Of a stretch of DNA of 64,000 bases, positions 5,645 to 9,280 are shown piece by piece. Position 1 is the stretch's first letter. Every line of letters begins with the position of its first letter. The position numbers were made by a program, and so were the translations under genes. Source of the stretch: an uncultured Ectothiorhodospiraceae bacterium (lineage in GTDB: Bacteria > Pseudomonadota > Gammaproteobacteria > UBA6429 > Thiohalophilaceae); contig CAMYOL010000055.1 in the NCBI GenBank assembly GCA_947260005.1, positions 1 through 64,000 on the forward strand. The letters are read 5' to 3'. The notes beneath the pieces are model-generated. The model saw only the letters and a program-made list of their open reading frames with translations, was not told the DNA's origin and made no database searches.

Positions 5645-6187
5645 TCAAATCCGGCTGCGTAACTGCCAGCTGGGTTGCCCGGTTTCATCGATAATTCCTT
5701 TTTCAATCAGCCAGTTACAGGCATCTTGAGCATCGTGTTCAAACCATTTTTGGGTCGAACCGAGGCGAAAGGTATATCCCCATTGATCCATATCGGCCAT
5801 CATGCGACTTTTATTTAGACCTGCCAGTTGATCGGCAAGTAATATTTGCAGGTAACAGACCCCATTTTCCTCGTCGTAATCCCCGCCCGCATTGGTGTCC
5901 AGCTTATGGCGGCGATCAGGACTCATGCAAATGTAATGACCTGCTTCGTGTAGGGCTGAATGGATGGGAGTGTCTGGACGGATGTATAAGCTATCACCAA
6001 CCAGGCCGGCCTCTTCATCCCCCCAAAAGCTGCCTGGGATCGGCTGTTTTGCAGCACTTAATTGGACGTTCAGTTGATAGGGGGTCAATAGCGTAATTAG
6101 CGCCTTGAGATCGATGTCTCTCACGCGTAACACGTCAACCTGCTTAGCGTTTGTGTTTTGTTCTGACTTTTTTGATGATGCGGACAC
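5645..6187 (-). CDS. Unknown protein with HEAGH metal-binding motif
   Basis: I do not recognise a named family. The protein is soluble, with no signal peptide or membrane segment. Residues 80-84 are HEAGH, an HExxH motif in the context IHSALHEAGHYICMS, which often binds zinc in peptidases. A possible third ligand could come from the acidic GGDYDEENGVCY or the downstream His/Asp region (WFEHDAQDACNWL). The predicted start is GTG and the first 44 bases overlap the end of the CheW-LysM gene. An alternative GTG just past that gene's stop, with AGCAGG before it, is also possible. The overlap implies translational coupling and a shared function with the CheW-LysM protein. Confidence 0.75.
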   Translation of the reverse strand: MSASSKKSEQNTNAKQVDVLRVRDIDLKALITLLTPYQLNVQLSAAKQPIPGSFWGDEEAGLVGDSLYIRPDTPIHSALHEAGHYICMSPDRRHKLDTNAGGDYDEENGVCYLQILLADQLAGLNKSRMMADMDQWGYTFRLGSTQKWFEHDAQDACNWLIEKGIIDETGQPSWQLRSRI

Positions 6188-8288
6188 GGTTGCCTGGGTA
6201 TATTAGATCTGGGTTTTTAATATTGCTTAGCCGAGCTAACTCGGGGTATTTATATGGGTTATTTACATAGCGAATGGCAATATGCCATAGAGTATCACCT
6301 TTGACTACTATATGAATAATCTCAGTACTCGAGATTGAGTTTGTCTGAGTTGGCTGGGGCTTGGTTTTTACCTTGGGGAGAGAACGGGTCATGTCTGTAT
6401 TAAGGTCATTGGTAACCTGATCAGTGCTATTTTTATCGACCGTAATCGCAATGTCGATTTCTTTATCATGTTGATCGTCAGCAGACTCGTCGACAGGTGG
6501 TATATCGTGTTTGAATACGGTGGTTTCTTCTGGAACCTCGAGCACGATGGTGATGCCGGTATTATCAGATTGGATATCAGCATGAAAATCAGAGCGTTCA
6601 TTTTGTTGTGATGAAATTGTTTCGGTTTCGGTCTGATTAATGGCAGGCGAATCAATCGCCTGGGCATCTGCGGTTTCGTCAATTGTGTTTTCGGTGGTCG
6701 AATTTGCTGAACCGATGTCACTTAATCTGTCATTATCGTGACCGTCGTTTCGCAGATTATCGGTGGTGTTGGTTTGTTCTTGAGCCTTTATCCGTAACTC
6801 AGAAATGCTTATTTCATTCAGGTTTTTAGATACATCGCCGGTCTGTTTAGTATTTTTTTCAGAATAAGAAAATAAATTCTGTGTATCGTTTTCGTTGGTA
6901 TTAGATTCATTAACGCCAGACACTGATTCTTTTACCGGTTTTGATTTTGTATCACTTTTTACGATTTGACTTGTTTTTGTATCGTCATAACTATCACTAC
7001 TTAGATACCAGACTAATCCAGGTATCATAATTAAAGCCACCAGTAGAAAGAATATAATTAAAGAAACTGAATGATTGTTTTCGTGTTCTTTATTTATTTT
7101 TTTTGACCTGCCAGGGCTATGTTTTTGCGAAGTTGAAATATTATTAACAGAGTTGGTCGGTTCGATATTATTTGTTGAATTAGAACTATGTGGTTGAATT
7201 TCCTGTTGGTTATTTATCGTTTGAATAGCGCTTGTTTTATTTTGTGAAGATCGTATGCCTGTCGATAAGCTGGCAGGTGAAGATGGACCGAGTTGTTTTT
7301 CTTTTCGATCTTTGTTTTTCTTTGTCTCACTAGTATTTAAATTTTCCGAAAACTTACTAAGTTGTGACGAGTGTGTCTGCGCTGGTTCTTTTTTCGCGTC
7401 CTGCTTGATGGTTGATGTTTCGTTATTTTTAGAATTGGATTGAGTTCCAGTTACTGAGTTTGTTTTAGCTTTTTTACTTGTTGTATCTGACTTTAGTGTA
7501 TCAGACTGGGTTTGAGTAACCATCGATGGATTAATTTTGTCTTTTCCCAATGTGGTGGGTGTAAGGGACTGGAATGCAGCCGATTCATTGTTTGAGGTCG
7601 TCGAAATAGGGGGAGTGGAGGAGGTTGATTTCAACTTCGTTGTCGAAGATGTTAAACGGGGTGAGTCATCTTTAATGGTTTTTGTTTTGTTGTCCTCTGT
7701 ATCGGATTCAATAGCGGTGATTGTTTTTTTATCTGTTATTGAAGATTCGCTGTGTTGAGTTACTCGAGACCCAATCGTTTGTTTTGTCACTTCCGGGGCT
7801 GGTTTTGATAAGGCCTGTTGTGTTAGTAGATGTTCGATATAGACACGTAAATAACCGCTGGTCGGTATGTTGTATAAGTTTTCAAACTCAGCGTAAAGAT
7901 ATATCTTTTTATCTAATAATAATGTTTTTGTGAATATTCCGCGTGGTAATAGCGGGGGTAAAGTTCCCCAACCACTTGCGGGAATTTCCATGACTTCTCG
8001 AATTTCGTCTACCCAAAAACCCACATGTCCCGTTTCAATTTGGGTAATGATGACACGGCCGGGGTGTTCCCATTGCTCTTTATCAACGCCAAACTTAAAG
8101 CGCAAATCCAGGTTACTGACGATATAGCCAGAATGTTTAAAAATACCCGGTTTAGCCAAATCACTGCCGGGGGGACGGGTTAAGGTAGGTGGGTGGATGA
8201 TACTGAGAACCGGTAAAGAAGGGGCACAACAAAGCACCGGGCCCACCCGGAATAGTAACAACGAGTTATTGTTGGTTAGTTCAACCAA
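6144..8288 (-). CDS. CheW-like domain / TM / LysM fusion protein
   Basis: This 714-residue protein has an unusual layout. Residues about 8-135 look like a CheW-type adaptor domain (LLLFRVGPVLCCAPSLPVL, GHVGFWVDEIREVMEIP). Then comes a Ser/Thr/Asn/Lys-rich linker to about 395. A basic stretch (GRSKKINK) precedes one membrane segment at about 408-429 (SLIIFFLLVALIMIPGLVWY), followed by a second low-complexity acidic region. A LysM domain covers 659-705 (VVKGDTLWHIAIRY, PDLIYPGNRVRI). Charge bias puts CheW in the cytoplasm and LysM in the periplasm on peptidoglycan. The start codon is TTG, and no upstream in-frame ATG exists after the preceding stop. A sigma-28-like promoter lies 33 bases upstream. 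It could anchor or tune a chemoreceptor array at the cell wall, but this is inference. Confidence 0.85.
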   Translation of the reverse strand: MVELTNNNSLLLFRVGPVLCCAPSLPVLSIIHPPTLTRPPGSDLAKPGIFKHSGYIVSNLDLRFKFGVDKEQWEHPGRVIITQIETGHVGFWVDEIREVMEIPASGWGTLPPLLPRGIFTKTLLLDKKIYLYAEFENLYNIPTSGYLRVYIEHLLTQQALSKPAPEVTKQTIGSRVTQHSESSITDKKTITAIESDTEDNKTKTIKDDSPRLTSSTTKLKSTSSTPPISTTSNNESAAFQSLTPTTLGKDKINPSMVTQTQSDTLKSDTTSKKAKTNSVTGTQSNSKNNETSTIKQDAKKEPAQTHSSQLSKFSENLNTSETKKNKDRKEKQLGPSSPASLSTGIRSSQNKTSAIQTINNQQEIQPHSSNSTNNIEPTNSVNNISTSQKHSPGRSKKINKEHENNHSVSLIIFFLLVALIMIPGLVWYLSSDSYDDTKTSQIVKSDTKSKPVKESVSGVNESNTNENDTQNLFSYSEKNTKQTGDVSKNLNEISISELRIKAQEQTNTTDNLRNDGHDNDRLSDIGSANSTTENTIDETADAQAIDSPAINQTETETISSQQNERSDFHADIQSDNTGITIVLEVPEETTVFKHDIPPVDESADDQHDKEIDIAITVDKNSTDQVTNDLNTDMTRSLPKVKTKPQPTQTNSISSTEIIHIVVKGDTLWHIAIRYVNNPYKYPELARLSNIKNPDLIYPGNRVRIIKKVRTKHKR

Positions 8289-8484: not shown

Positions 8485-9276
8485 TTACTGGTTCGCCGAA
8501 GCTTCAGCTGATCGGGTGAGTCGTATGAAGGTTTCAAGATCGAGTGTTTCGGGCCTGGCGGCTGGGTCGATTTGAAGCGCCTCAAGCTGTGCAGGCGTGA
8601 ACCAGGTTTTCAGACTGTTGCGAATGGTTTTGCGTCGTTGAGAAAAGGCCTGTTTCACAATGGTTGAGAACACGTCGTTGGAGACATCGATCGGTTCGAG
8701 GTGAGGGATCAATTGCACGATGGCTGACTCAACCTTGGGGGCCGGGCTAAAGGCGTGACGACTCACGGTAAATAAATTATGAGTTTGGCAATAGAATTGT
8801 GTCATGACACTCAGGCGTCCATATATCTTTGATCCGGGTACAGCGGTAATCCGCTCAACGACTTCTTTTTGCAACATAAAGTGCATGTCTTTGATGCAGG
8901 GTAAAAACTTAAACAGATGAAACAGTAATGGGGTTGAAATGTTGTAGGGTAAGTTACCTACAATACGTATATTTTGTTGAGATGAGGTCGGGTACAGCGA
9001 ACATATATCGACTTTCAGCGCATCAAGTTCATGCAAATACAGATGGGCTAATTGTTTTTCTTGCCACCAGCTCACCAGGTCACGATCAATCTCAATGACA
9101 TGGAGTTGTTTTAGAGTTTCTAATAGCGGTAGTGTTAAGGCGCCGCGCCCAGGTCCGATCTCAACAAGCTGGTCGTCGGCTTGTGGATTGATTGCGCTAA
9201 TGATTTTGTTAATTATATTTTGATCATGTAAAAAATTCTGACCAAACCGTTTGCGTGGTGATTTAAATTCTGACAT
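8485..9276 (-). CDS. rsmA: 16S rRNA dimethyladenosine transferase RsmA (KsgA)
   Basis: RsmA dimethylates the two adjacent adenosines in the 3' terminal hairpin of 16S rRNA (A1518 and A1519 in E. coli numbering) late in 30S assembly. The 263-residue protein has FGQNFLHD at the N-terminus, SAM motif I VEIGPGRGALTLPLL, HVIEIDRDL, and the catalytic NLPYNIST. The C-terminal helical domain contains AFSQRRKTIRNSLK. I use the ATG at 9276; an in-frame TTG precedes it by one codon. The start lies four bases after the pdxA stop, so translation is likely coupled. It is the last gene of the lptD-surA-pdxA-rsmA operon. Confidence 0.97.
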   Translation of the reverse strand: MSEFKSPRKRFGQNFLHDQNIINKIISAINPQADDQLVEIGPGRGALTLPLLETLKQLHVIEIDRDLVSWWQEKQLAHLYLHELDALKVDICSLYPTSSQQNIRIVGNLPYNISTPLLFHLFKFLPCIKDMHFMLQKEVVERITAVPGSKIYGRLSVMTQFYCQTHNLFTVSRHAFSPAPKVESAIVQLIPHLEPIDVSNDVFSTIVKQAFSQRRKTIRNSLKTWFTPAQLEALQIDPAARPETLDLETFIRLTRSAEASANQ

Positions 9277-9280
9277 CAAT

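Follow-up and report, generated by a model that had tools for sequence, protein, structure and literature searches.

A CheW-like domain joined to LysM through a single predicted membrane helix: a candidate tether between chemoreceptor arrays and the cell wall

What might a CheW-like domain do in a protein that also appears to cross the membrane and to end in a LysM domain? The question is raised by one gene in the window, by which we mean the whole 64,000-nucleotide stretch of DNA analysed here, from an uncultured Ectothiorhodospiraceae bacterium. A sequence-only reading of this DNA had taken the product for a chemotaxis adaptor that links the receptor array to the cell wall. The proposed link gains indirect support from the fold, the topology and the repeated joint loss of the gene with flagellar chemotaxis, whereas the view of the protein as an ordinary CheW adaptor is not supported. 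In the systems reviewed, array placement involves curvature and Tol-Pal in E. coli and, elsewhere, ParC/ParP with HubP or FimV, where the link between ParC and HubP is not known (PMC7534058). One protein connecting an array-type domain with the wall would anchor the array directly and physically, and anchoring could be tested with one gene.

Protein layout and gene neighbourhood

The gene, the parts of its product and its two neighbours are as follows.

6144..8288 (-): CheW-TM-LysM gene, 714 aa, with a TTG start at 8288 and a stop ending at 6144 (ORF and translation, homologues)
7806..8264 (-): CheW-like domain, predicted to be cytoplasmic, aa 9-161, Pfam core aa 10-131 (PF01584, AlphaFold2, Foldseek)
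7074..7805 (-): N-side linker, aa 162-405 (composition; pLDDT mostly <50)
6999..7073 (-): single membrane helix, aa 406-430 (Kyte-Doolittle 2.95 and predicted helix)
6336..6998 (-): C-side linker, probably periplasmic, aa 431-651, acidic and mostly disordered
6531..6587 (-): beta-hairpin motif YxAxI..(G)ITIxL..P within the C-side linker, aa 568-586, conserved
6177..6314 (-): LysM domain, aa 659-704 (PF01476; PDB matches 6ve2 and 3jc8)
8485..9279 (-): rsmA (PF00398), the upstream neighbour marking the conserved locus
5645..6187 (-): HEAGHY-motif neighbour, whose listed ORF has 44 bases in common with the end of the CheW-LysM ORF

Both terminal domains are recognised by Pfam above the curated family cut-offs. 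PF01584 (CheW) matches aa 10-131 (E 1.3e-12; 48 bits against a cut-off of 23.5), and the isolated domain was modelled by AlphaFold2 with a mean pLDDT of 92.0. The top PDB matches of this model in Foldseek are CheWs (E 2e-10 to 1e-6), those of E. coli, Thermoanaerobacter and Thermotoga ranking before CheA P5. Profile and fold thus place the domain within the CheW family of Pfam. At the other end, PF01476 (LysM) matches aa 659-704 (E 8.9e-9; 35.6 bits against a cut-off of 20.9), which assigns the protein by profile to the LysM proteins; the nearest LysM domains by sequence are of the TsaP type, and the matching PDB entries are 6ve2 and 3jc8.

Apart from one stretch within the CheW domain, Kyte-Doolittle hydropathy exceeds 1.6 only in a strong membrane segment at aa 408-426 (2.95), which lies between the two domains. 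On its N-terminal side is a low-complexity linker rich in S, T, N and Q, with a net charge of +11 over aa 158-406 and predicted disorder from about aa 177. On its C-terminal side the linker carries a net charge of -24 over aa 431-655. A full-length AlphaFold2 model, built with 23 aligned relatives, consists of the CheW domain (9-161), a low-confidence stretch (177-404), the helix (406-430), a second low-confidence stretch interrupted by a hairpin (569-585), and LysM (652-709). The basic linker on the CheW side and the acidic linker on the LysM side recur in most relatives; in three relatives the N-side linker is acidic, not basic. Because of this charge distribution, the sequence fits a bitopic inner-membrane protein with the N-terminus in and the C-terminus out. 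Of 24 family ORFs scanned, 20 contain the hairpin motif, which some LysM-only paralogues share; the motif may be a second, periplasmic binding site.

Thus, the layout proposed from sequence alone (CheW-like domain, one membrane segment with positive-inside bias, C-terminal LysM, long flexible linkers on either side of the helix) is borne out. Either the profile search or the predicted structure could have spoken against it, and both favour it. We rule out a chance or misread ORF, as 23 genomes share the layout despite free divergence of the linkers, and an assembly artefact that joined two genes, as the same fusion occurs in many independent assemblies and in several GTDB families.

The gene belongs to a conserved order, surA-pdxA-rsmA-[CheW-LysM]-HEAGH-apaG, and in most loci it lies directly after rsmA. 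The HEAGHY-motif neighbour has no Pfam or NCBIfam match; its motif resembles that of metal-dependent proteases. It was considered as a functional partner and left out of the system because it is retained at the locus where the CheW-LysM gene has been lost.

Distribution, relatives and joint loss with flagellar chemotaxis

In the window's family, a single ORF encodes both domains in 23 genomes from 13 genera, and five further genomes have the gene in fragments at contig ends. Across these family members the CheW and LysM domains are conserved and the linkers are not. In a sample of the class, the profile of the CheW domain has a match at E 1e-15 in 34 of 369 genomes; ordinary CheWs account for many of these matches. 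CheW and LysM in one protein were confirmed by Pfam in the GTDB-level families f137, f53, f127, f65, f34, f102 and f49, as well as in a metagenome-assembled genome (MAG) labelled Thermodesulfobacteriota (L089); L090, a second MAG, which is labelled Desulfobacteraceae, has matches to both domain profiles. Members from other gammaproteobacterial families are divergent in form, and most, not all, of the distant members have a membrane segment by hydropathy. Of 398 genomes sampled across the phylum and searched for close relatives at E 1e-20, none but that of the window passed. The architecture is rare beyond the window's family, the gammaproteobacterial families listed and the two MAGs.

In a tree, the CheW domains of these proteins cluster apart from the sampled soluble CheWs (branch support 100/100), the sole intruder being the PilI of the host on a very long, unreliable branch. 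This clustering makes a single origin of the CheW domains possible.

Several related genes were noted. Four genomes of the family encode a second, divergent CheW...LysM protein of 535-867 aa (L068:8702-10882, L069:8817-11420, L070:3879-5486 and L071:1243-3009), with Pfam support in L068 and L069; a fifth copy (L072) is incomplete. This gene is preceded by a 449-aa ORF in L068, where that ORF is dihydrolipoamide dehydrogenase-like, and in L072; the L068 gene is situated about 10 kb or less from a Pil-Chp cluster. In four genomes (L053:10276-11592, L056:9166-10188, L058:9650-10858 and L064:633-2120) the CheW-LysM gene is directly followed by a membrane-LysM gene; the N-terminal part of these four proteins belongs to no known Pfam family, and three of the four carry the hairpin motif. 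Short membrane-LysM proteins of 210-223 aa that lack CheW occur in the window's genus (L076:8005-8649, L077:7570-8241, L078:531-1163), with a LysM resembling that of the CheW-LysM protein. A LysM-pattern scan of the genome contigs returned mostly LysM-only matches, which by position are probably TsaP.

The genome G160, a single contig, has the CheW and membrane-LysM parts in different overlapping frames (L205:7900-9469; also L178), which is a frameshift or a sequencing error. A gene of family f36 at the rsmA-apaG locus (L204:6927-8909) encodes a CheW domain and a hydrophobic segment, with no LysM match at a Pfam E of 0.01. At L089:5476-5922, a PilZ-domain gene (c-di-GMP receptor type) is immediately followed by the CheW-LysM gene. 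In f117 and f57, chemotaxis operons encode long proteins with a CheW domain (L215, L216); these were rejected as relatives, as a search for a membrane segment or LysM found neither.

Within the window's family, all 28 carriers of the gene (five of them with the gene in pieces) also have a short, non-ChpA CheA. Nine of the 37 family genomes lack the gene. In six of these (G004, G007, G011, G012, G021 and G026) the only CheA is a ChpA of about 2000 aa (visible only as a fragment in G007), there are 0-1 MCPs, and FliG is absent. The other three (G025, G027 and G032) are 75-82% complete. Their lack of the gene is best read as assembly gaps, since rsmA is also absent from G027 and G032, and the contig of G025 ends about 2 kb past rsmA; in G014, a genus-mate of G025, the gene is several kilobases from rsmA. 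The association of the gene with flagellar chemotaxis gives a Fisher p of 3.6e-5 for the 37 genomes and of 4.9e-4 for the 24 genomes that are at least 90% complete, values that ignore relatedness. As the genomes are not independent, a tree of SurA, PdxA, RsmA and ApaG carries more weight. It places five of the six losses on four branches (G004 with G021, G007, G011, G026), the position of G004 and G021 near the root depending on the outgroup. In four of the five placed losses (G004, G007, G011 and G021) no gene separates rsmA from the HEAGH gene and apaG, which indicates clean loss of the gene from an operon that was kept. In G012 rsmA itself was not found; thus, this genome was not counted as an independent loss.

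Short CheA was also present in all 13 distant carriers or candidates tested, and FliG in 10 of the 13. One carrier, G030, has CheA and no FliG in its assembly, which may be a gap. The CheW-LysM gene tracks flagellar chemotaxis in the window's family: a gene of a housekeeping operon has been dropped by relatives that were losing flagellar chemotaxis. The joint loss does not separate chemotaxis from flagella.

Function of the CheW-like domain and of the protein

In 13 soluble CheWs, including that of E. coli, Q37, E38, N60, L61, R62 and G63 (E. coli numbering) are invariant. Of 27 close family members, all or nearly all lack the first five, and about half keep G63. The domain thus lacks the signature (Q37/E38 and N60-L61-R62-G63) of a functional CheW adaptor, and the view of the protein as an ordinary one is not supported. 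In E. coli, a salt bridge between E38 and R62 keeps the receptor- and kinase-binding sites in register (PMC3828127). Given the residues lost, the domain is unlikely to replace CheW in signalling. The fold positions G57, V102, D103 and F75 are kept, and the motifs LLLFRVGP, PGIFKH and GFWVDEI are strongly conserved in the family. Evolution appears to have retained the CheW fold after its signalling residues were lost.

A better fit is a structural role like that of ParP. The chemotaxis cluster of the host reads CheY-CheZ-CheA-CheB-Mot-ParC-ParP-CheW, where Mot stands for two motor proteins, ParC for a ParA-like ATPase assigned by its position, and ParP for a ParP-like protein. This ParP lacks E38 and R62, as does the CheW-LysM protein; the host's CheW, CheV and PilI keep both. 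The CheW-like AIF domain of V. cholerae ParP integrates into arrays, which it tethers to the pole, and its L209, which matches V27 of T. maritima CheW, is needed for receptor binding (PMC5706961). Of the four hydrophobic positions in the receptor-binding groove of T. maritima CheW (L14, V27, I30 and V33), three are hydrophobic in the CheW-LysM family, and the V27 position is Ser, Thr or Ala. From these comparisons, the domain may join arrays and probably does not signal as CheW does.

On balance, we favour the view that the protein is an inner-membrane tether for the flagellar chemoreceptor array, i.e., a structural, non-signalling, ParP-like array component tied to peptidoglycan. In the cytoplasm, the CheW-like domain would join or contact the array baseplate or a protein of the array, as the AIF domain of ParP does. 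The long, flexible, basic linker would supply the reach to the membrane, where the single helix (406-430) would cross and fix the protein. The acidic linker with its conserved hairpin would then lead through the periplasm to LysM, which would bind peptidoglycan, so that the array would be held against the cell wall and could be kept or placed there. Domains, fold, the one membrane segment, conservation and joint loss are documented here, whereas the orientation of the protein, its binding to array and peptidoglycan, and what the tether is for are proposed. For LysM the proposal draws on other LysM proteins such as FimV, whose LysM binds peptidoglycan and which helps place chemotaxis proteins (PMC12918733).

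Some observations weigh against a tether. The groove position that corresponds to ParP L209 is Ser, Thr or Ala; the gene lies outside the che operons, in a housekeeping operon; the linker that should be basic is acidic in three relatives, and the f36 protein lacks a LysM match. In addition, FimV is encoded by most family members with or without the CheW-LysM gene (the host copy is elsewhere, at C56:52212), and with FimV and ParC/ParP the host might place its arrays in any case. A broader proposal is more tentative: a new, patchily spread class of wall-anchored array proteins that would tie flagellar chemoreceptor arrays to peptidoglycan, with the wall also influencing array position or output, for example during division or surface contact.

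As the main alternative, the CheW fold might have been repurposed to bind another partner at the flagellated pole, such as ParC, FlhF, FimV or the flagellar motor, and the protein would then act at the pole or the motor of flagellated cells without being part of the array. The residues for coupling CheA and receptors are lost while the three family motifs are conserved, and the joint loss would fit a flagellar partner equally well. In addition, there is no direct interaction between ParC and HubP, and the factor linking them is not known (PMC7534058). We nevertheless consider a new partner rather unlikely. As ParP indicates, integration into arrays does not require E38 and R62, and carrier G030 has CheA and apparently no FliG. 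Furthermore, CheW folds are known chiefly as parts of arrays.

The protein could also be a sensor, in which wall stress, surface contact or the state of peptidoglycan at LysM or the hairpin alters array output via the CheW-like domain. A link that spans the membrane and has a conserved periplasmic hairpin as well as LysM would suit such a sensor. However, more than 350 residues of predicted disorder surround the helix and would transmit a conformational signal poorly, and the protein lacks E38-R62, the pair coupling receptor to kinase, making this explanation improbable.

A role with type IV pili (Pil-Chp), combining a PilI-like CheW with a TsaP-like LysM, is very doubtful. It would agree with the closeness of the LysM to TsaP, with the position of PilI near the CheW-LysM clade (on its very long, unreliable branch) and with a divergent paralogue in G028 about 10 kb or less from a Pil-Chp cluster; however, relatives that keep ChpA and have lost flagellar chemotaxis have lost the gene. 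Least probable is that the protein merely maintains the envelope as part of the surA-pdxA-rsmA-apaG operon and has no role in chemotaxis. The company of surA and, further upstream, of lptD would fit such a role; however, the operon is intact without the gene in non-flagellated relatives and divergent homologues of the gene sit in unrelated contexts.

Comparison with known systems

The sequence-only reading knew of no characterised protein with a CheW-TM-LysM layout, and a search for CheW joined to LysM in the searchable literature likewise found no study of one. One survey counts 30 undescribed CheW architectures in Pfam 35 (PMC10653840); thus, the layout may already be listed among them, unstudied. 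The same source describes CheWS of Treponema, a CheW-CheRlike hybrid, which resembles the CheW-LysM protein in joining a CheW domain to an added domain and differs in having a CheRlike domain in place of the membrane helix and LysM.

Soluble CheW and CheV have the CheW fold in common with the CheW-LysM protein, which differs in being, by prediction, membrane-anchored and in lacking Q37, E38, N60, L61 and R62. Among LysM domains of solved structure, that of TsaP, the secretin-associated LysM protein of type IV pili, is nearest in sequence, but TsaP has no CheW domain and belongs to a different machine.

FimV/HubP, on which the placing of chemotaxis proteins depends, sits in the membrane with its LysM in the periplasm and an extended, flexible region in the cytoplasm, as is predicted for the CheW-LysM protein. 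Its order is the opposite, with LysM towards the N-terminus and the acidic cytoplasmic part and TPR C-terminal (PMC12918733), and it lacks CheW; neither the FimV core (TIGR03505) nor the FimV C-terminal domain has a match in the CheW-LysM protein. ParP combines a degenerate CheW-like domain with an anchoring part, as the CheW-LysM protein appears to do. However, ParP is soluble, with its CheW-like AIF domain at the C-terminus and an N-terminal part that binds the ATPase ParC, whereas the CheW-LysM protein has an N-terminal CheW-like domain followed by a membrane helix and LysM, and the host encodes a separate ParP beside ParC, so that the protein is not itself a ParP. Although the defining features of both ParP and FimV/HubP are lacking, the protein would by analogy work most like ParP, an array domain with an anchor, joined to the membrane and LysM parts of FimV/HubP.
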